Of a DNA stretch of 64,000 nucleotides, positions 7,057-29,113 are shown one piece after another; position 1 is the first letter of the stretch; every line of letters begins with the position of its first letter. Both the position numbers and the translations under genes were made by a program. The notes beneath the pieces are model-generated. The model worked only from the letters and a program-made list of their open reading frames with translations. It made no database searches and was not told where the DNA came from. The DNA is taken from contig NC_021921.1 of NCBI RefSeq assembly GCF_000470655.1, positions 1,984,001 through 2,048,000 on the forward strand, written 5' to 3'. The stretch comes from Halorhabdus tiamatea SARL4B (GTDB lineage Archaea; Halobacteriota; Halobacteria; Halobacteriales; Haloarculaceae).

Positions 7057-8124
7057 TCAGTCTTCAGCGCCGATCAACGCGTCGACGTCGGCGTGGTCGT
7101 CGAGGAGTTGTTGCATCCGGTCGACGGTGCCCGCGCTCCGGGTCGGGCCGGTCTGGAGGAGGTCCTCGGTCCGGTCGATCACCATGCGCGTGTCCGACTG
7201 CAGGAGGAGGATCGGGACGCCCTCCTCCTCGGCCCGACCGATGATCGCACTCGACGGCCGGAAGCCACCGCCGAGGATGATCGCCTTGATGCCGGAGGCG
7301 TCGAGTGCGGCGGTCACGATCTCCGGGCGGTCGCCGCTGGTGATCATCACCGCGTTCTGCATGCGGCGGAACTGCGTGAGCGCGCTCTCGGCGGACATCG
7401 CGCCGACGGTGAAGCGCTCGACGAACAGGTCCGTCCCGGCGTCGCTGGTCAGGACCTCCGCGCCGAGGCGTTCGGCCAGGTCGTCGACGGTCAGTCCGGC
7501 GAGTTCCTGGACGCGCGGGACGACGCCCAGCACGGGGATGTCGTGGTTCTCGAGGAACGGGACGACGTCGGTCGTCAGCTGGTCGAAGACGGCGTCCGGG
7601 ACAGCGTTGAACAGGACGCCGGCAAGGGAGTCCCCGAGCGTCTCGGCAGCCGCGAGGATGTCGTCGACGTCTTCGGGTTCGTCGTACCGCGAGAGCAACA
7701 CGACCTGGGCGTCGAGCATCTCGGCGATGTCGGCGTCCGTGAGGTCGACGATCCCGCCGGTCGTGAGGCGGTCGGTCCCCTCGATGACCATGAGGTCGCG
7801 TTCGCTCGCCATCTTTTCGTAATTCTCCAGAACCCGATCCCGGAGTTCGTCGGTCTGTTCGCGGCCCTGGATGGCCTCCTGGACGAACGTGGGCGTGTAG
7901 ACGATCGGCTCGAGTTCGTGCATCTCCGAGTCGAGCCCGAGGAGTTCGCGAGCGAGCATCGGATCTTCGTCGCGGGTCTTGCCCGTCGCGCTCTGGAGAC
8001 GGGTCCCCTTGGGTTTCATGTAGCCGACGCTGTGGCCGGCCGCGTCTGCGAGTTTCGCGAGTGCGAGCGTGACTGCGGTCTTGCCAGTTGCTTCCTCGGT
8101 CGACGTGACCAGGATTGGGGGCAT
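7057..8124 (-). CDS. BioD-like P-loop/DRTGG-domain protein (phosphotransacetylase N-terminal type)
   Basis: A 355-residue protein. Residues 1-200 form a dethiobiotin-synthetase-like P-loop domain, with STEEATGKTAVTLALAKLAD at 8-27 serving as a Walker A region. A DRTGG domain follows (about 210-320, GAMSAESAL and ITSGDRPEIV). The combination is found in the N-terminal part of long phosphate acetyltransferases, but no acetyltransferase domain is present here. It lies 120 bp behind the ADP-forming acetyl-CoA synthetase gene on the same strand. A regulatory or accessory role in acetate/acetyl-CoA metabolism is likely but unproven. Confidence 0.75.
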   Translation of the reverse strand: MPPILVTSTEEATGKTAVTLALAKLADAAGHSVGYMKPKGTRLQSATGKTRDEDPMLARELLGLDSEMHELEPIVYTPTFVQEAIQGREQTDELRDRVLENYEKMASERDLMVIEGTDRLTTGGIVDLTDADIAEMLDAQVVLLSRYDEPEDVDDILAAAETLGDSLAGVLFNAVPDAVFDQLTTDVVPFLENHDIPVLGVVPRVQELAGLTVDDLAERLGAEVLTSDAGTDLFVERFTVGAMSAESALTQFRRMQNAVMITSGDRPEIVTAALDASGIKAIILGGGFRPSSAIIGRAEEEGVPILLLQSDTRMVIDRTEDLLQTGPTRSAGTVDRMQQLLDDHADVDALIGAED

Positions 8125-19779: not shown

Positions 19780-20601
19780 ATGCCTGTCCAGAGCGACTTC
19801 GACGTGGCGGACGAGGTGTGCGTGATCACCGGCGGTGCGGGCGTGCTGTGTTCGGCGATGGCACGCGCGCTCGGCGAGCAGGGCGCGACGGTCGTCGTGA
19901 TCGACATCGACGAGGACGGACTCGCCGAGGTCGCCGCGAATCTCGACGACGTCGACGCCGAGTACATGACCCTGGAAGCGTCGGTGCTCGACCGGGCGGA
20001 ACTCGAGGCGGCCGCGGAGACTGTCGTCGACAAATACGGCCGGATCGACGTGTTGATCAACGGCGCTGGCGGCAACAGCCCGGAGGCGACCACCGACGAG
20101 TCGACGGACTTCTTCGGCCTCGACGCCGCGGGTGTCGAGAACGTGTTCAACCTCAACTTCCAGGGGACGTTCCTGGCTGCCCAGGCCTTCGGCGAGTACA
20201 TGGCCGAGCAGGGCGAAGGCCACATCCTCAACGTCTCCTCGATGAACGCCTTCACACCGTTGACGAAGATCCCCGCCTATTCGGGGGCGAAGGCCGCCGT
20301 CTCGAACTTCACGGAGTGGCTCGCGGTCGACATGGCCCAGAACCACTCACCAGATATTCGGGTGAACGCGATCGCCCCCGGCTTCCTCCTGACCGAGCAG
20401 AACCGGTATCTCCTGCTCGACGACGAGGGGAACCTGACCGACCGCGGCCAGCAGATCATCGACCACACCCCCCAGGATCGCTTTGGCGATCCCGAGGACT
20501 TGCTCTCGACCGTGCTCTGGCTGATCGCGCCCGGCTCGGCGTTCGTCACCGGGGCCGTCATCCCCATCGACGGCGGCTTTGCGGCGTTCAGTGGGGTTTG
20601 A
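19780..20601 (+). CDS. SDR-family D-mannonate oxidoreductase (fructuronate reductase) homologue
   Basis: A 273-residue short-chain dehydrogenase. The NAD(P)-binding TGGAGVLCSAMA is at about 17-28. Catalytic Ser lies in NVSSMNAF, and Tyr and Lys in PAYSGAKAAVSNF. The stretch INGAGGNSPEATT and the C-terminal AIAPGFLLTEQNRYLL closely follow the SDR-type mannonate oxidoreductases, which interconvert fructuronate and mannonate. Mannonate dehydration gives KDG, so this enzyme could feed the KDG kinase/aldolase encoded at the left of the window. No mannonate dehydratase is seen here. A TATA-like gtttaag lies at 19745, 29-35 bp upstream. Confidence 0.72.
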   Translation: MPVQSDFDVADEVCVITGGAGVLCSAMARALGEQGATVVVIDIDEDGLAEVAANLDDVDAEYMTLEASVLDRAELEAAAETVVDKYGRIDVLINGAGGNSPEATTDESTDFFGLDAAGVENVFNLNFQGTFLAAQAFGEYMAEQGEGHILNVSSMNAFTPLTKIPAYSGAKAAVSNFTEWLAVDMAQNHSPDIRVNAIAPGFLLTEQNRYLLLDDEGNLTDRGQQIIDHTPQDRFGDPEDLLSTVLWLIAPGSAFVTGAVIPIDGGFAAFSGV

Positions 20602-20649
20602 AGAGAAAGATTCAGAGACGGATTCGTCGGAGTGACTTTTACGATGAAA

Positions 20650-20757
20650 GCCCTCACCGGTTCCGGTCCCACGACTTGTTGCGCGCTTCGGGCGCTTTGC
20701 GCCCTGCAGTGCTTACGTCGTCGGGGTTCCCGGAACCGGCTCGCCCTTTCATTCCGC
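20650..20757 (-). repeat. Palindromic repeat element, copy A
   Basis: Read on the minus strand, this contains the blocks tgaaagggcg, cgacgtaagcactg and gaagcgcgcaac, ending in gggctttc. A long stem is formed by ccggttccgg (20657-20666) and ccggaaccgg (20730-20739), with an inner hairpin gggcgctttgcgccc. The same block order occurs on the plus strand at 26435-26549. It occupies most of the gap upstream of the type IIG enzyme gene. Confidence 0.65.
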
Positions 20758-20869
20758 CAGGATTCGGCTGATTAGCAGGGAGAAGTAGGCTTCTTACTCG
20801 GTGCTTATCTGAACACTGCCACTCATCGGTTGCATACTTTTTTGATCGGTCGTCGTGTCGGCATAGTCA

Positions 20870-23800
20870 ATGGCAGACGCCGCGGCTCTTCACGAAACTC
20901 TGCAGGCGATCACAGAACGAACCGATGGCGAGATGAGCGAGCGTGACGTGGAAAACCTCTTTCTCGAACAGGGATTCTACGACGCGCTCGATTACAGGGG
21001 CACGGGAACGGACCTCCGAAGCGAGTTTACCCTGCCCGACGATCGCCGTCCGGACTACCTGACGCTTGATAATAACGAAGCGGTGACGGCCGTCTACGAA
21101 TTCAAAACTACCGGGCGAGAGTTGGCACCACACGAAGACCAACTCTTTCATTACATGGAGTATCTGCGGTCGGAGTACGGCGTATTGACCAACGGAGAGG
21201 AACTGCGTCTCTATCAGTTGGGAGACGATCGGCCCATGCTCACCGTCTCATTAGCGGGTGTGACCGAGAGCCAGGCCCGGGATCTCGTGAGCGCGCTTCA
21301 GAAGCGCGAGTTCGACCTGCGCGATCCCGAGGACGTGAGCGAATTCCTCGAAACGCTCGATCCCATTCCGCTAGATGCAGAGGCGGAACTCGGCCAGGAA
21401 CACTTCTTCGATACGTTCCGACTCGAAGAGGGGAGCCCCTTCGCTAACCTCGTCACGGGCCTGATGGACCTCCTGCACGAACTGCGTGACGAGCAGGAGG
21501 CGAAGTTCGTCAAGGGAGCCTACGACTTCTGGGAGGCGACATATGCCGACGAACCCGACGAGGTCCCGAACTCCTGGGAGCCGTTCATCGACGGGAAGCA
21601 GTCGCTCCGGGATTTCATGTTCTGTCTGGAGAGCGGGCACGCCCTGCTCGCTCGACTGTTGCTGGCGAAGGCCACCGAGGATCACGACTTCTTCGCCGGG
21701 ACAGGCTACGAGGGGATGGACGACTACTTCCGTGGTCTGCAGGGATTCAGTCAGACGATCAATCTAGACGCATTTCCGGTTGCTGCGGACAACCTCATCG
21801 ACGACATGCAGGAACAGCTGGTCGAGGGGCTGTTCCAGGATGACATCTTCGTCTGGTGGACCGACGGCTACGCCGAGCAACTGGCTCGGGGCCACGAGAC
21901 GGGGGCCAACCAGTTCCAAAAAGTGGCGGAAGGTACCGGCAGCATCGAGCGGATCAGCGAGGCGACGCGGGATCGCTTCAGCCGTGCTGTCGCGGAAGTG
22001 TTCTTCAACGTCCTCCGGTTCGACTTCGAGGAGGTAGAGGGCGACCTGCTGGGCGACCTCTATCAGCGCTATTTCGACCCGGAGACCCGCAAAGCTCTCG
22101 GGGAGTTCTACACGCCACAGCCGGTCATCGAATATATTATGGACGGTGTGGGGTACGAGCGCGGCGTCTCAAACGAACGACTCATAGACCCGGCGTGTGG
22201 GTCCGGGACGTTCCTTGTGGAGGCTGTAGAGCGGTATATCGAAGACATAGAGCGATACGAGGACGATCCGGACTGGGAGGAGCACCTGCGGGACCTCTGT
22301 ACCCGTCCGCGGATCGTCGGGCTGGACATCCACCCGTTCGCGGTGTTAATGGCGCAGATCCGCTTCGTGGTTGCTATCCTCCCGGCCTATCGGGAGGCCA
22401 AACAGAAGGCAGAGCGTGAAAACCGCGATTTCACGCTCCGTAGGTTGCCAATCTATCGTACTGACACGCTCCGCAACGAGCGGGAGCTGACGGGCGCAGA
22501 TTTAGGAGAGGATGGAGCGCGGCAGATGACCTTCGACGCGATGACCGAGGACGAACAGGACGTGCGGATTCCCGTTCCGTTGCCGGTCGAAGTGGACGAA
22601 GACGAGGCTGTCGAGACGGAAGACGGCTTTTTGGTCCGCCGGGTGCGGATGCCGCTGTTCGACACGATTCAGTTGGAGACAGGCGTGAACAACTTCGGGG
22701 AGTATTTCGCGGCTCTGCAAGGTGTCTTAGACACCGTCAAGGACCACATGGCGCTGGCCGAGGAGTTCGGCGGCGACTTCGACTGGGAATACAAGAGTGG
22801 GCTGGAGGAGCGCATCAACCAGCACACGTCGCGAGAGTACTCCGGCGTGGAGGAGTTCTTCGCGCCGTACGTGGACGACATGCTGGAGAACGTGGAATAC
22901 CTCAAAAAGGAGCACAACGACGGACGGCTGTTCAAGATGTTCGAGGACACCGTGCTCGCCTTGGTCGTGAAGAATTACATGACCTATGACTACGTCGTGG
23001 GGAATCCGCCCTACGTCCGCGTACAGAATCTCCCCGACAGTCAGAAGGAGATGATGGAGTCGCTGTACGACGCGACAACGGGCAACTACGACATTTACTG
23101 TCCGTTCTACGAGCGGGGCCTCGACTGGCTCCGCGAGGACTCCGGGAAACTCGGATTCATCACGCCGAATCAGTTCATGGTCACAGACTATGGCGAGGGT
23201 CTGCGCGAGGTGCTACTAGATGAGGCGCGCATCGAGGAAGTCTACGACTTCCGCGACTCTGGGGTGTTCGAGGACGCCACCAATTACCCGGCTATAGTGA
23301 TACTTGACGACGAGCCCGATCAAGCCAGCCGTGAGGACAACGAGATTCGCTGCGTGCGGGTGAAGGCCGACACCGATGAGGATCGCGACCGGGAACTCGA
23401 CACGGCCATCATCGAGTCGGTGCGCGAGCATCGCGGCGAGCCGGGCTACTCGGACGAGTTCATCGACGTGTTCGACTTCCCGCAAGGGAAACTCGCGGCG
23501 GACGACTACTGGGCGATGATGCCGCCGGAGGAGTTGCAGGTCTTCGAGAAACTGGAGGACGAACAGGACGCCGTCATCGGAGACGTGACCGATGCCGTCT
23601 TCCAAGGTATTCGAACCAGCGCGAACAAGGTTTACATCGTGGACGTACTTGACGCCGACCGGGTTGAGTCAGATGACTCTGGAGAGACGGTCACAGTAGT
23701 TCCCACCGGAGAGTCCCAAGAGTACGAGATTGAAACGGACCTACTTCGTCCGTTCCTCGAAGGCGATGAGGTCAAACGGTGGCGAGGTGATTGGGGCGGG

Positions 23801-24793
23801 CTTCACGTCGTACATCCCTACTATGCTGAGGAAACTGAAGACGGGGAACTCGAAGCCGGCCTCTACTCACAGGACTACCTCGAAGAAAATCTCCCGCTGA
23901 CGTGGGACTTCTTCCTCGCCCACAAGGAGGAACTCGAGGGTCGTGAAGGAGGTCGAAAGGAAGGCAAAGACGACTGGTACGGGTACATCTATCCGAAGAA
24001 TCTGGGGAAGTTCGAGAATCCGAAGATTGTGCAGGCACACATCGCAACTGACGCGACCTTCATGATTGACGAGCCGGGGACGTGGTACTTTACAACGGCC
24101 TACGGCGTTCTCCTAACTCCCCAATACCGGAACCTCACCGAGGAGATGGCCTGTCAGTTGAACTCGAAGGCGTTGGACTTCTACTTCAAGCACATCACGA
24201 CGGTCAAGATGGGCGGATTTTACGAATACCGCTCGCAGTACGTCGAGAAACTGCCCTGCAAGACCGAAGACAGTGCCGGCGTCTTCGGGACGATGCGCGA
24301 GAAGGCCGGTGGGATTGTGGACACCATCGACCTCGACAGCAAGACCGACCGCTTCCCCGAGGCGTACCTCGGCGACTACGACGGTGAACTCGACAACGTT
24401 ACCTACGAGTGGCAGACGCGCCGATATCCGGTGAGCGCCGACGTGCAGGGCGACGTGGACGGAAACTTCACCGTGCAGGCCGGGCGGTCGGACACGATCA
24501 ACGACCCGGCGATGTATTCCGACGACCGCGAGGCGCGCAAGCAACGCGCCGAGTACGTCCACGCCGCCGTGGACGGGCGCAACGTCAAGAGCGGCGAGGA
24601 GACGACCATTCCGATTCCCCGCAGCGACGAGGGTGTGGTCGAACTGCTCGACCGGCTCGACGCCGACCGCGAAGAAGTCCGCGAGACCGATATCGAGGCA
24701 CTGGAAGCCGAGATCGACGAGGCCGTGTATGATCTGTTCGATCTGACCGAGGAGGAGCGCGAAGTCGTCGAGGAATATCTCGAAGTATTCTGA
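20870..24793 (+). CDS. Type IIG restriction-modification enzyme (fused nuclease, N6-adenine methyltransferase and specificity region)
   Basis: A 1307-residue single-chain enzyme. Residues 1-150 hold a PD-(D/E)XK nuclease site with Asp62 (RRPDYL) and Glu77-x-Lys79 (VYEFK). The methyltransferase has motif I DPACGSGTF near 440 and motif IV NPPY near 712, which signifies adenine-N6 methylation. A target-recognition-like region follows at about 890-1160, and the C-terminus is a helical acidic tail. The fused layout resembles Eco57I/type IIG and also PglX-like enzymes. No BREX partner genes are nearby, so a stand-alone restriction-modification enzyme is more likely. Start at ATG 20870, about 24 bp after a TATA-like tacttttttg. 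Confidence 0.9.
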   Translation: MADAAALHETLQAITERTDGEMSERDVENLFLEQGFYDALDYRGTGTDLRSEFTLPDDRRPDYLTLDNNEAVTAVYEFKTTGRELAPHEDQLFHYMEYLRSEYGVLTNGEELRLYQLGDDRPMLTVSLAGVTESQARDLVSALQKREFDLRDPEDVSEFLETLDPIPLDAEAELGQEHFFDTFRLEEGSPFANLVTGLMDLLHELRDEQEAKFVKGAYDFWEATYADEPDEVPNSWEPFIDGKQSLRDFMFCLESGHALLARLLLAKATEDHDFFAGTGYEGMDDYFRGLQGFSQTINLDAFPVAADNLIDDMQEQLVEGLFQDDIFVWWTDGYAEQLARGHETGANQFQKVAEGTGSIERISEATRDRFSRAVAEVFFNVLRFDFEEVEGDLLGDLYQRYFDPETRKALGEFYTPQPVIEYIMDGVGYERGVSNERLIDPACGSGTFLVEAVERYIEDIERYEDDPDWEEHLRDLCTRPRIVGLDIHPFAVLMAQIRFVVAILPAYREAKQKAERENRDFTLRRLPIYRTDTLRNERELTGADLGEDGARQMTFDAMTEDEQDVRIPVPLPVEVDEDEAVETEDGFLVRRVRMPLFDTIQLETGVNNFGEYFAALQGVLDTVKDHMALAEEFGGDFDWEYKSGLEERINQHTSREYSGVEEFFAPYVDDMLENVEYLKKEHNDGRLFKMFEDTVLALVVKNYMTYDYVVGNPPYVRVQNLPDSQKEMMESLYDATTGNYDIYCPFYERGLDWLREDSGKLGFITPNQFMVTDYGEGLREVLLDEARIEEVYDFRDSGVFEDATNYPAIVILDDEPDQASREDNEIRCVRVKADTDEDRDRELDTAIIESVREHRGEPGYSDEFIDVFDFPQGKLAADDYWAMMPPEELQVFEKLEDEQDAVIGDVTDAVFQGIRTSANKVYIVDVLDADRVESDDSGETVTVVPTGESQEYEIETDLLRPFLEGDEVKRWRGDWGGLHVVHPYYAEETEDGELEAGLYSQDYLEENLPLTWDFFLAHKEELEGREGGRKEGKDDWYGYIYPKNLGKFENPKIVQAHIATDATFMIDEPGTWYFTTAYGVLLTPQYRNLTEEMACQLNSKALDFYFKHITTVKMGGFYEYRSQYVEKLPCKTEDSAGVFGTMREKAGGIVDTIDLDSKTDRFPEAYLGDYDGELDNVTYEWQTRRYPVSADVQGDVDGNFTVQAGRSDTINDPAMYSDDREARKQRAEYVHAAVDGRNVKSGEETTIPIPRSDEGVVELLDRLDADREEVRETDIEALEAEIDEAVYDLFDLTEEEREVVEEYLEVF

Positions 24794-24803
24794 CCAGGCA
24801 CAC

Positions 24804-26012
24804 TCACAACATATCGTCGGTGGTTTCCGCGTTGCGTAACTCCCCGAGCGTCGTGTATCGCAGTCCCTGCGGATACTTTGATTCGTATGGAATCGGATCT
24901 TCGAGTTCGTACAACGACCCCGTTTCGAACGTTACGACCCTCTTGTCCTCGGCGATCTTGGCTCGGTCTTTGTAGTTCAGCGGTTCGCGCATGAGATCGG
25001 CTTCGTCGGGAGCAACTACCTCGTCAGCCCTTGCGATGTACCGCACTTCGCGCACGTCGCCAGTGACGTACATCGCCACGTAGTCGAACTCCGACCCGAC
25101 CCGGACGAATCCCCAGGCTTCGTTTTCCTTGAGAAACGGGAGGCCGGATTCACGCGTCGGAAAAACGGCCACTTTCGCGTCTGGATCGCCGTCAATGTCG
25201 GCCCGGGCAATCGTCCCCGCCACCCGATTTTCTATCGGTTCAATATCGTCCGGGTTGTCGGGTCCGTCCGTTGAACCGATCTCCGACTGCTCCGATCGCT
25301 CAGACTGTGAAGACTGTGAGGAGTGCTCCTCACTCACGAAATGACGCTGTTCTTCCAGCACAGATGCGAGGTTTTGCACGAACTCGCGGGACTGTTCGTC
25401 GAGGCTGATCGTCAACTCACCCACCTCATTCTCCACTGCGTCAGCTACAGCTTCGGTGACGCTGTCCTCGTTCTCCCTGAGATAGCGAATCGCCCGATTC
25501 GTCTCCGCGACCTGTGCGGCGATCTCGTCGGACTTCCCCGAGCGGATCGACTCCTTGGTGAGCAATTCCAGCACGTCGGGGTTCTCGGCCAGATCGTCCA
25601 GATCGAACCGGACGACAGAGACCTCTTCGCCACCGTTGCCAGCACGGTTCTTGGTCAGGACTTCGAAGGACTTCCCGTTGGTCAGAACTCCCCAGTCCAC
25701 GTCGAGTTCCTGACGCATGTAGCTACGCAACTGCTGAATCTCGTCGTCGGTGAGCGCCGATCGGACGGGCTTGGCTTCGACGAACACCACCGGAGAGTCG
25801 CCGACGAGAAGCGCATAGTCGACGTGCGTGCTCCCCGACGCCATCGGAATCGTGTATTCGAGGGCGACTTCCGTCGAGTAGAGATCCCACCCGAGCAGTT
25901 CGAGAAATGGCTGGACCAGTTTGACCTTCGTGTTCTCCTCGTCCATCTGCGGTGAGGATTCGATGAGTTGCTGACACCGCCGCACGTACTCGGCGATCTC
26001 GTCTCGATCCAT
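24804..26012 (-). CDS. HsdR N-terminal-type nuclease-domain protein
   Basis: A 402-residue protein. The N-terminal 200 residues match the type I restriction enzyme R-protein N-terminal domain: ENTKVKLVQPFLELLGWDL, then Asp65 (HVDYALLV) and Glu79-x-Lys81 (FVEAKP), a complete PD-(D/E)XK core. There is no helicase motor. A linker rich in Ser and Glu (about 235-265) leads to a C-terminal beta-rich domain of unknown function (VAVFPTRESGLPFLKENEAW). It converges on the type IIG gene with 10 bp between stops. It may be an independent defence nuclease or a partner of that enzyme. Confidence 0.8.
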   Translation of the reverse strand: MDRDEIAEYVRRCQQLIESSPQMDEENTKVKLVQPFLELLGWDLYSTEVALEYTIPMASGSTHVDYALLVGDSPVVFVEAKPVRSALTDDEIQQLRSYMRQELDVDWGVLTNGKSFEVLTKNRAGNGGEEVSVVRFDLDDLAENPDVLELLTKESIRSGKSDEIAAQVAETNRAIRYLRENEDSVTEAVADAVENEVGELTISLDEQSREFVQNLASVLEEQRHFVSEEHSSQSSQSERSEQSEIGSTDGPDNPDDIEPIENRVAGTIARADIDGDPDAKVAVFPTRESGLPFLKENEAWGFVRVGSEFDYVAMYVTGDVREVRYIARADEVVAPDEADLMREPLNYKDRAKIAEDKRVVTFETGSLYELEDPIPYESKYPQGLRYTTLGELRNAETTDDML

Positions 26013-26156
26013 TACTGGCGTCTCCGTACCGACCCCTATTTAAGATGGTGCCACGGAACTCCATTCAGCCGGATTAGCGATCTGGACGCGAATTCGTTAT
26101 AAATTATATATGTCCTGGCGAACTATCACTCCGCATACGGAGTCATAATTCGAACG

Positions 26157-26285
26157 ATGCGACAACCGCACAAAGAAGACCGACCTGTGACCGACGAAGA
26201 ATTCGCGGAGATGCCCGACCGGATCCACGAGCATTTCGAGACGGTCCGGGACGCGCTCGAAGCCGCTCTCGAGGACGACGAATGA
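26157..26285 (+). CDS. Possible 42-residue acidic protein
   Basis: A short open frame starting MRQPHKEDRPVTDEEFAEMP and ending in EALEAALEDDE-like acidic helix, with typical haloarchaeal acidity. A strong TATA-like stretch (ttataaattatata, 26097-26110) lies about 50 bp upstream. The frame is open back to 26103 without a start codon, so this may be the remnant of a longer gene. It is convergent with nothing and divergent from the HsdR-N-type gene. Confidence 0.4.
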   Translation: MRQPHKEDRPVTDEEFAEMPDRIHEHFETVRDALEAALEDDE

Positions 26286-26720
26286 CCGTCAATCCTGCTT
26301 AGAGGGGTATGGGCGTCGCTATTCAGATGAGTAGCGATCAGTGAGTTCATTTCTGCTGACCGAAGAGTCGGCTTCCTGGCGAGCAAGTGACCCCTTCCAT
26401 TTCAATTCGTATCGGCTGCCCAAACAGGAAGCGCGGGTGGGACTGAAAGGGGCGGCTCGCTGGAGGAAGGCGGCCGACGCAAGCACTGGACCGAGCGAAG
26501 CGAGGGAAGCGCACAGCGAGGCCCCCGACTCCAGCGAGCCGGGGCTTCCAATTTCGTACTTCAATTCGATCGTTCTCTGTTTTACTATGGTCCCTCGCTG
26601 CCCCATGTCGAACGACTCGGGGCTTTCACGCTGTTCATGGCTAGAATAGTACCGTCTCTGAAAACGCTGCAAAACCCCAATGAATTAAGCAATCCCCCGC
26701 ACAACACGGAACCAGTCCAG
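26286..26720. other. 435-bp region without a gene, holding repeat copy B
   Basis: Apart from the palindromic element at 26435-26549, this stretch has no acidic reading frame and looks non-coding. A TATA-like ttttacta lies at about 26580. The 80 bp before the SHOCT protein start at 26721 may contain its promoter. Confidence 0.4.
26435..26549 (+). repeat. Palindromic repeat element, copy B
   Basis: The plus strand shows tgaaaggggcg, cgacgcaagcactg, gcgaagcg, gaagcgcacagc and a gggcttcc end, in the order seen in copy A. The stem is a perfect 12-bp repeat: ggctcgctggag (26454-26465) and ctccagcgagcc (26529-26540). The stem sequences of A and B differ while their pairing is kept, which is what one expects of a conserved structure. 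Orientation is opposite to copy A. Confidence 0.65.
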
Positions 26721-27152
26721 ATGTCGGAACGCCTTCGAGACTTCGTCGCGGACGAACTCTGGCTGGCGATCGGTGCGGTCACGCTCCCGGCCATGATGCT
26801 GTTCGACACGATCGGAGTCGAAGTTCTCTCCGAAGTGTCGGTGATCCTCGGCTGGTTCCTCCTCACGCCCCTGTTTCTCTTCTGGGGAGAGGAGATCGCT
26901 GGCGTACTCTTCTCGACGGACGACGCCGAGGAGACGGCGGACGCCCAGGAAGAAGCGATCGAGAAGCTCAAGCGCCGGTATGCGGAGGGCGAAATCAACG
27001 AGCGGGAGTTCGAACAGCGCCTCGAGAAGCTGGTCGCGACCGAGGAAGGGGATCCGGCTGACTACGATGACTTGACGGCGAGCAATCGCTCCAGTGCGTC
27101 GACCGGGGCGGATACACGCGACGGTGCCAAGCGAGAGCGCGAGCTGGAGTGA
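26721..27152 (+). CDS. SHOCT-domain membrane protein
   Basis: A 143-residue protein started at MSERLRDFVADELW. Two hydrophobic helices occupy about residues 15-60, and a SHOCT module (IEKLKRRYAEGEINEREFEQ) lies at about 81-108. The tail is charged and low-complexity. Function is unknown. It resembles the protein at 679 in architecture. It directly precedes the left end of the IS1341-type element. Confidence 0.75.
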   Translation: MSERLRDFVADELWLAIGAVTLPAMMLFDTIGVEVLSEVSVILGWFLLTPLFLFWGEEIAGVLFSTDDAEETADAQEEAIEKLKRRYAEGEINEREFEQRLEKLVATEEGDPADYDDLTASNRSSASTGADTRDGAKRERELE

Positions 27153-27269
27153 GACGGACGAATCTCCAGGTGTCCCACGACGGCAGTCGCTACCTGACTC
27201 AAGGAGAGAGTCCCGCCCTTTAGGGCGGGCGTGAATCCGACACACCACTTCACAATCCACGCTTGACGA

Positions 27270-27407
27270 TTACTCCGGGGTATCCTCTCGGACTTTCTTT
27301 TCGCCCTCAAGGAGCAATCCCTTCCACGTTAACCCACGGTGCGTCTTCAGTTCTTTCAACCGCTCGTACTGCTCATCGTCATCGAACTCGATGCGAACTT
27401 CGACCAT
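27270..27407 (-). CDS. Small protein divergent from tnpB
   Basis: A 45-residue acidic protein that begins MVEVRIEFDDDEQYERL and ends EDTPE. Its length and its beta-strand-then-helices pattern suggest a ribbon-helix-helix or antitoxin-like DNA-binding protein. It starts 53 bp from the tnpB start, facing away, so both promoters lie in the AT-rich interval 27408-27460. It may regulate tnpB; this is inferred from position. Confidence 0.6.
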   Translation of the reverse strand: MVEVRIEFDDDEQYERLKELKTHRGLTWKGLLLEGEKKVREDTPE

Positions 27408-27460
27408 ACAGTAACACACAAACCACATCTTTATGTGTGTTCCGATACAAACAGTAGTCG

Positions 27461-28738
27461 ATGAAGCGAGCCAACACGTTCGAAGTGATTCCGCAGTCCG
27501 ACGAGGACGAGGAGTTGCTTCGACGCCTGTTGGACGCTTCTGCCGCTCTCTGGAACGAAATCAACTACGAGCGCCGCGAGAACTATGCTGACCCAGACGG
27601 AGACGTGTGGGACATCAGCGAGTATCGCGGTCGCTATGGTGGAACACTTGGCGCATCCACGGTTCAGCAAATCGAACGCAAGAACCGCGAAGCGTGGAAG
27701 TCGTTCTTCAGCCTCAAGAAGAAGGGCGAAGCCAACGGCAAACCCGGATTCTGGGGTAACGCAGACGAAGGTCGAGAACTCCGCACGTACATCCGTAACA
27801 CGTCGTACTCCGTCGAGTGGGGCGAATACTCTCGCCTCGAAATTCTCGTCGGTCAAGACCTGAAAGACGAATACGGGTTGGGACACCGCGAACGTCTCCG
27901 CCTCGAAGTTCGAGGTGAGCCCAATTGGAAGAAGTACGAGAAGCAGGGCCGGTTGGAGTTGTTCTACGACGAGCAAGCACAGACATTCAGGGCCTTTCAG
28001 CCAGTCACCGTCGATGATTCTCGACTGGCACAACCACTGGCTTCGGAAGAAGCCGCTCTGGACATCGGTGCGAACAACCTCGTCGCCTGCACCACCACAA
28101 CCGGCCAGCAATACCTGTACGAAGGACGCGACCTGTTCAAACGATTCCGCGAAACCACGCGAGAAATTGCCCGCCTCCAATCACTCTTGGAGGACGGTCG
28201 ATACAGCAGTCACCGAATCCGACGCCTGTACGAGCGGCGCACCAAGCGACGTGACCACGCTCAAGACGCACTCGCGCGTGACCTCATCGAACGTCTGTAC
28301 GACGAGGGTGTTTCGACAGTGTACGTCGGGGCGCTGACGGACGTGCTTGAGACGCACTGGTCGGTAGAGACGAACGCCAAGACGCACAATTTCTGGGCGT
28401 TTAGAGCGTTCGTGAATCGACTGGCGTGTACCGCTGAGGAATACGGTATGTCGGTGGAAGTACAGTCTGAGGCGTGGACGAGTCAGGAGTGTCCGAACTG
28501 CGGTTCGATAGAGGACACGACACGTCACAGAGACACTCTGACGTGTCCGTGTGGCTTCGAGGGGCACGCCGACCTCGTGGCGTCAGAGACGTTCCTTCGG
28601 CGGCAGACAACGGTAACACGGTCGATGGCACGGCCTGTATGCCTCAAGTGGGACAACCATGAATGGTTGGAGTCATCACGCTCTCCCCGTCCCAACGAGG
28701 AGCATACGAACCCGCAAGTTGCCTCCGTGGGCCGGTAG
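27461..28738 (+). CDS. tnpB: TnpB, RNA-guided nuclease family (possibly catalytically impaired)
   Basis: A 425-residue protein with the TnpB layout: N-terminal nucleic-acid-binding domain, RuvC-like domain from about 195, and a zinc finger. The first RuvC acid is Asp201 ([11 protein letters not shown]) and the third is Asp371 ([11 protein letters not shown]). The zinc ligands are C344, C347, C362 and C364 (CPNCG, CPCG). At the second position, relatives have an acidic residue in VGD/EDL; here it is Ala291 (VYVGALTD). Full length and intact otherwise. Family members use an RNA from the element's right end to cut DNA at the donor site. Confidence 0.88.
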
Positions 28739-28790
28739 TCGATACCCCCAGCGCGAGGAAACCCCGCCGTTCACGGCGGGGAGGATGTCA
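28660..28790 (+). ncRNA. Putative omega/reRNA at the right end of the tnpB element
   Basis: In IS200/IS605 elements the guide RNA is transcribed from the 3' end of tnpB through the right-end hairpin, with the guide lying just outside. Here the stem at 28762-28781 is followed by gaggatgtca and then flanking DNA. The boundaries and the guide are inferred, not seen. Confidence 0.45.
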
Positions 28791-28972
28791 TTGAAGGCTG
28801 TTCGCGACGGGAATGGGACAACGCGGATATCAACTCCCTTGTCCTACGTCGCTCGAGAGAGCACATCGCGAAACACGCACTCCTTGGAGATCGAACGTCC
28901 GCCGAGCGAAGCGAGGCGGTTCACTGCGAGGGAGCGAAGCGACCGAGCAGGTGTTTTTGGTCCAGATTTTTG

Positions 28973-29020: not shown

Positions 29021-29039
29021 AAGTAAAAAGGTGGTATAG

Positions 29040-29113
29040 TGGGCCAAACCGGATTTGAACCGGTAGCCTCCCGGTTATCAGCCGAGCGCTCAACCTGATT
29101 GAGCTATTGGCCC
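29040..29113 (-). tRNA. tRNA-Ile (GAU)
   Basis: The minus strand folds as a complete cloverleaf: acceptor GGGCCAA/TTGGCCC with discriminator A, D arm GCTC/GAGC, anticodon arm CTCGG-CTGATAA-CCGGG with anticodon GAT, and T arm ACCGG-TTCAAAT-CCGGT. No intron is present and CCA is not encoded. Confidence 0.95.

Follow-up and report, generated by a model that had tools for sequence, protein, structure and literature searches.

Hairpin-bearing MITEs at the edges of a variable restriction gene locus in Halorhabdus tiamatea

The region from a short-chain dehydrogenase (SDR) gene to a tRNA-Ile gene in Halorhabdus tiamatea SARL4B is probably a variable cassette locus with MITE edges, in or at which the breakpoints lie, and not a composite transposon. 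The two hairpin elements framing its restriction genes (A and B) are not a private pair but members of a dispersed family, and the hairpin itself is a widespread, covarying and sometimes inverted twin-hairpin module, which is new here and absent from Rfam.

Results

Content of the locus

The window, i.e. the whole stretch of DNA analysed, comprises 64,000 nucleotides of the H. tiamatea genome (G000), and was compared mainly with a sister species (G005) and with the closer sister of the latter (G006). The features of the locus are collected in Table 1.

Table 1. Features of the locus bounded by SDR and tRNA-Ile (window positions)
Feature	Position	Strand	Basis or remark
SDR, left anchor	19780-20601	plus	90-92% identical orthologues in G005 and G006
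IS6-type MITE carrying A	20607-20820	minus	terminal-repeat pattern; alignment with MITEs of G005 and G006
Right terminal repeat of the A MITE, eroded	around 20607-20626
Element A, structured hairpin core; opens TGAAAGGG, closes GGGCTTTC	20646-20751	minus	R1 covariance model 114.2 bits, E 1.9e-24; fold
Left terminal repeat of the A MITE, intact: GGCAGTGTTCAGATAAG	20804-20820
Type IIG restriction-methyltransferase, 1307 aa, variable cargo	20870-24793	plus	Pfam and PADLOC
HSDR_N-type protein, 402 aa, cargo	24804-26012	minus	Pfam HSDR_N_2, 1.2e-9
43-aa ORF in a G+C-poor stretch, cargo	26157-26288	plus	translation
Left-truncated twin-hairpin MITE carrying B	26390-26590	plus	compared with complete copies L148, L166, L172
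Element B, structured hairpin core	26444-26549	plus	R1 covariance model 108.6 bits; fold
Right end of the B MITE, CCATAGTAAAACAGAGAACG	26571-26590	minus	end-pattern match at G000:C2:2010571-2010587
Remnant of the ancestral right-hand twin-hairpin MITE, beside the SHOCT gene	26607-26670	plus	compared with G005
SHOCT-domain protein, right anchor	26637-27152	plus	81% orthologue at the same site in G005
tRNA-Ile, right anchor	29039-29113	minus	common to G000, G005 and G006

The type IIG protein contains the Pfam domains Eco57I, N6_Mtase, TaqI_C and HSDR_N and is assigned by PADLOC to REase_MTase_IIG; about 50 bp separate the start of its gene from the terminal repeat of A, with a similar spacing in G005, and an AT-rich stretch (20833-20845) lies outside the A MITE. 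Only this gene, the HSDR_N protein and the 43-aa ORF are situated between A and B, in line with a preliminary description. The G+C content of the cargo is 0.54-0.60 versus 0.65 in the window; the 43-aa ORF had no homologue in the loci searched, and neither an integrase among the cargo ORFs nor the integrase gene with att repeat characteristic of a tRNA-anchored integrative island was found. A distance of 2.5 kb, containing TnpB and the SHOCT gene (no close orthologue in G006), separates B from tRNA-Ile. The TnpB-encoding (OrfB_IS605) element (27194-28791, TnpB at 27461-28738) has no counterpart in G005, where positions 7893|7894 of L062 are cleanly contiguous; it is a recent insertion near tRNA-Ile.

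Elements A and B belong to a dispersed family

Two related elements in inverted orientation had been reported at this locus, and the cores recovered by the covariance model, A on the minus and B on the plus strand, agree with this; the shared blocks (tgaaaggg, cgacgYaagcactg, gaagcgc, gggctt) likewise follow each other in the reported order, while the stems differ between A and B. After the opening TGAAAGGG, both continue with a 10-13 bp stem of variable sequence, the conserved core CGACGYAAGCACYG and a small inner hairpin, followed by GAAGCGC or GAGGAGCGCAGCGAG, the complementary stem arm and GGGCTT(T/C)C. Direct BLASTN finds 31 of 41 positions identical in the core, with E values of 8e-6 in the pairwise search and of 0.005 when the 64-kb window is searched; the likeness seen in the pairwise comparison alone is modest. 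The membership of A and B in one family is nevertheless certain, since each of them matches further copies in the genome with up to 87% (A) and 84% (B) identity. A third, truncated member is located directly to the right of B. With 16 loci on the chromosome, 0.54 neighbouring pairs are expected within 6.5 kb (probability of at least one, 0.43), therefore framing by two members is in itself no evidence.

A covariance model (R1) was built from 20 copies, and the search of the genome and of other haloarchaea proposed in the preliminary description yielded many copies: 19 in G000, 31 in G005 and 20 in G006. Within the family, the model detects the hairpin in 49 of 57 genomes and in all 22 genera; in a sample of 117 genomes from the whole order, 83 have it, frequently with tens of copies per genome.

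Structure of the hairpin

The conserved hairpin is approximately 90-110 nt long and occurs either singly (A type) or as a head-to-head twin (B type), in which the spacer is usually 44 nt in many genera. In an alignment of 71 distinct copies, which was fitted to the model and is hence biased towards structure, 95% of the cells pair versus at most 42% with shifted partners, changes on both sides occur at 31 of 35 pairs, the arms of the stem varying while pairing is kept, and double-change cells number 565 versus 176 in shuffles. The same pairing picture was obtained from alignments made by MAFFT only. G-U accounts for about 2.4% of the standard pairs (55 of ~2304), and apical loops of the C-GNA-G type were counted in 27 of 83 cases versus 7 of 844 in mononucleotide shuffles; GNA loops are known from unusually stable DNA mini-hairpins (PMC4686876). 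The Rfam search at gathering and permissive thresholds gave no match to the element at E up to 5, the sole exception being a 12.8-bit chance match beside B.

The carrier of A and its mobility

The ends of the A backbone are those of an IS6-family insertion sequence, its IS6-type terminal inverted repeats being recognizable, although the right one, intact in the relatives, is eroded in A. Complete A-type MITEs at other sites are 215-217 bp long with the hairpin, several of them with an 8-bp target duplication; there are also 130-bp MITEs without the hairpin (L063, L105), with TGAAAGGGCGAGGGCTTTCA or a close variant, and the two forms fit gain or precise loss of the hairpin alike. The 8-bp duplications in sister copies read TCTGGCGG, CGAGCGTG, ACTCATAG and CCCCGTAC; besides that of TCTGGCGG, such duplications occur in MITEs of G005 and G006. 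A 215-bp MITE of the own genome (2743613-2743827) is absent from G005 and G006, where the empty site contains one TCTGGCGG versus two in G000; another insertion is common to G000, G005 and G006 and absent from G003 and G004. Twin MITEs of about 305 bp are found at unrelated sites, with 8-bp duplications, and their ends are of the IS6 type. The clean empty sites and the 8-bp target duplications demonstrate that the MITE backbones are mobile. A itself shows no 8-bp duplication, which is due to the erosion on its right and to the replacement of the flanking sequence on its left.

An autonomous partner with A-type ends is present within the genus: a 697-bp IS in G004 has the same ends and encodes a 220-aa transposase matching DDE_Tnp_IS240. 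All IS6-type transposases of this subtype in the own genome are partial fragments or interrupted frames, which makes present-day IS6 activity in G000 doubtful. In a sample of hairpin loci across genera beyond Halorhabdus, an IS6-type end was found within 130 nt in 6 of 35, compared with 0 of 210 background windows; consequently the assumption that all hairpins reside in IS6-type MITEs was rejected as a rule, and the module has several carriers.

A transposase-like sequence is present in 13 identical copies in the own genome (G000:C2:698760-698909 and 12 other places), one of them beside a hairpin element. Furthermore, inserts of about 50-58 nt, each with two mini-palindromes, were recognized in hairpin copies of G006 (L090, 1501-1877) and G005 (L157, 675-768), and closely similar twin palindromes (GCGTGGCGGCG..CGCCGCCACG and GGAGGTCGGCG..CGCCGACCTCC) are common to these two genomes; they possibly form a third level of nested small mobile repeats.

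The carrier of B and the right-hand remnant

The MITE of B has kept the spacer and the right hairpin and has lost the left hairpin and the left end, the break being at about 26390. Its right end (CCATAGTAAAACAGAGAACG; CCATAGT) is common to the class of L148, L166 and L172 and is not of the IS6 type, hence A and B have different MITE end types and one transposase cannot explain both borders. Neither empty B-type sites (by pattern, in seven genomes) nor a transposon in the genus that could be the autonomous partner for these ends (by end pattern) were found. L148, L166 and L172 are apparently inserted at the centres of palindromes, and the empty site of L148 in G006 reads GGTTGTGGGCCCATGGGCCCGCAACC.

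The remnant to the right of B consists of a 3' stem arm, GGGGCTTTCACGCTGTT and a degenerate terminal repeat; it is identical to the left hairpin arm of G005 in 28 of 28 positions and is colinear with G005 up to the SHOCT gene. The remnant is the ancestral right-hand element, and B represents a later, lineage-specific insertion beside it.

Inversion of twin elements

The twin element at 1600771 is common to the three species, and its middle part (both hairpins with the spacer) is inverted in G000: compared with G005, 187 nt match at 92% in the inverted and at 77% in the direct orientation, and compared with G006, 290 nt match at 82% inverted. In L171 the hairpins are exchanged relative to the ends when compared with L143, L169 and L173. 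As to the remnant in the window, its match is to the opposite arm of the corresponding element of G005. These rearrangements are most simply accounted for by recombination, or template switching, between the two inverted halves.

The locus in related genomes

In G005 the order is SDR, A element, a type IIG enzyme of 1455 aa, an intact twin-hairpin element, SHOCT and tRNA-Ile. A and SDR together are 83% identical over 1.1 kb between G000 and G005, and the two type IIG enzymes have only the methyltransferase region in common, at about 25-33% identity. The A element and the composite element beside SHOCT have identical sites in G005, and the type IIG gene enclosed by them is another one; A and the right-hand element are therefore older than the split of G000 and G005 and older than the present cargo. 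On the SDR side, G006 and G005 are 96.7% identical. In G006 a MITE without hairpin stands 560 bp from SDR; its locus also encodes a CARDB protein, and contains neither a restriction gene nor the right-hand element. The cargo is thus different in each of the three genomes. The comparison demonstrates that A and the right-hand composite were present before the divergence of G000 and G005, that the restriction genes between them differ, and that the locus of G006 has been turned over altogether.

Between G000 and G005 the homologous sequence stops precisely at the outermost base of the terminal repeat of A (window 20820, corresponding to L062 2484), a breakpoint at which there is no target duplication. 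The MITE L149 (G000:C2:2534576-2534705), which has neither hairpin nor target duplication, sits at a rearrangement junction, its flanks being 136 kb apart in G001. An 80%-identical type IIG gene of a distant relative (G038; L064, G038:C1:661000-671500) adjoins a tRNA-like gene, with no hairpin element and no HSDR_N homologue beside it; the idea that the elements are part of the restriction system was rejected on this basis.

Discussion

It had been suggested that the inverted elements either helped the island to arrive or mark preferred insertion sites. The first suggestion is contradicted by G005, where A and the right-hand composite stand at the same sites around a different type IIG gene, as well as by the later insertion of B, the different ends of A and B, and the enzyme of G038 without an element. 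The second one fits better; the variable segment has its limits at the elements. The preliminary description had named relatives with the elements at the same sites and no island as evidence against its interpretation; this was half the case, because the elements are at the same sites in G005 but other cargo is there instead of an empty site, and G006, which is without restriction genes, is also without the right-hand element.

We propose that A and B are copies of a dispersed, non-autonomous MITE family with the conserved hairpin as its hallmark. An IS6-type transposase acting in trans could delete or cointegrate DNA exactly up to the terminal repeat, and the long palindromes and inverted copies might promote breakage, template switching and recombination; MITEs could set the edges of the cassette site by these two routes, and the restriction genes would be passengers of the turnover of the locus rather than being carried by a transposon with A and B as its ends. 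IS6 transposition within one molecule loses the flanking duplications, and circular IS6 units can insert beside an existing copy (PMC7986276). The breakpoint at A without duplication is the pattern expected of an IS6-type adjacent deletion or cointegration, and intramolecular transposition of this type may have occurred there. Only one species pair shares both borders, thus the link between MITE ends and cargo breakpoints draws on very few cases, and a shared intergenic stretch that ends by chance with a MITE could look alike; a role of MITEs in making the exchange site is plausible, and they may have had it.

That A and B were the ends of a composite or pseudo-compound transposon which carried the restriction genes in is tempting, since two inverted members of one family frame a cargo of low G+C content and IS6 elements are known to move cargo (PMC7986276). 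However, this was largely refuted by the synteny with G005, where A and the ancestral right-hand element surround an unrelated gene, and by the differing ends of A and B, of which B is also later and truncated. Moreover, in IS6 compound units the copies are direct repeats rather than inverted ones (PMC7986276). Neither a target duplication spanning the island nor a circular intermediate nor a directly repeated IS6 copy framing the cargo was found, and the compared genomes gave no instance in which A, B and cargo had been gained together; we regard such a transposon as very improbable. A somewhat better, yet still small, chance is given to coincidence, namely to an ordinary variable intergenic region, a hotspot at the side of a tRNA gene, where MITEs are tolerated and take no part in the exchange. 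The random expectation of neighbouring pairs, the anchoring tRNA gene, the TnpB element inserted in the same region, and the G038 enzyme standing beside a tRNA gene without MITEs all speak for it, but the sequence shared by the two species ends exactly at the outer base of the terminal repeat of A, B is broken precisely at the base of the hairpin, and L149 is also at a rearrangement junction. A variable cassette locus with MITE edges is the preferred explanation.

The purpose of the hairpin is a separate question, and a structured RNA (a small RNA or processing signal) carried by MITEs, with covariation reflecting selection on RNA, would be compatible with either reading of the locus. The covariation and pairing in the 71 sequences, the conserved sequence of the internal loop and the broad distribution across the order are in line with it. 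Against this, G-U pairs are in our judgement few for a selected RNA, the enriched C-GNA-G loops are of a type known for stable DNA mini-hairpins, no Rfam family matches, and correction from arm to arm in a palindrome can maintain pairing without selection; we consider a structured RNA rather unlikely. The low G-U content and the GNA loops are a hint, not a proof, that the structure matters as DNA, and the pairing could also be due to repair in which one arm serves as template for the other. It is a speculative and in our opinion doubtful extension that the twin hairpins are kept as DNA structure, use several unrelated MITE carriers, flip in place and make sites of cargo exchange, including that of restriction genes.

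The framing of the island is mostly explained by ordinary MITEs, and the older border elements antedate the present cargo, which corrects the tempting reading as a composite transposon. What remains noteworthy is a covarying hairpin, with at least two MITE end types, whose orientation at a given site was found to differ from one species to another. For the genomics of haloarchaea it would be a marker by which cassette exchange can be mapped, and it would be a natural case for testing whether selection or self-templated repair maintains long DNA palindromes.

Bacterial REP/BIME sequences are dispersed extragenic palindromes, often in inverted pairs; compared with them, the present element is longer (~106 nt), has a conserved internal-loop core and lies inside MITEs with target duplications. 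Among haloarchaeal IS6-family MITEs, MITEHarch3 is recorded in ISfinder (PMC6807381), and two others of 227 and 336 bp have been noted (PMC7986276). The present MITEs resemble these in their terminal repeats (GGYRGTGTTCAGATAAG), 8-bp duplications, lack of an ORF and comparable length, and have here an autonomous 697-bp relative within the genus; they differ in the covarying hairpin module, single or twin, MITEHarch3 having been compared by description only, and in that the ends of B are not IS6-type.

Like SMR-A of Haloquadratum (PMC3119063), the hairpin is about 110 bp long with prominent inverted arms and occurs in many copies by unexplained mobilisation. SMR-A sits within palindromes close to the termini of other mobile elements, and the hairpin may do likewise. 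SMR-A copies are reported to be nearly identical within a type, commonly above 95% (PMC3119063), whereas here the stems differ completely and pairing is kept; direct repeats of 3-5 bp (GCGAG, GGGGC) flank the hairpin and none flank SMR-A, and, again compared by description only, the hosts of SMR-A are IS605/PATE elements, in contrast to IS6-type and other MITEs here.

At the level of the locus, the parts of the work on Halorubrum ezzemoulense homeocassettes (PMC11078007) considered here do not discuss MITE ends as borders, unlike the present case, and they map transposases, integrases and tRNAs near the islands. According to the same parts, homeocassettes resemble the locus described in this article in that differing islands, in some cases with restriction-modification genes, take each other's place between shared anchor genes.
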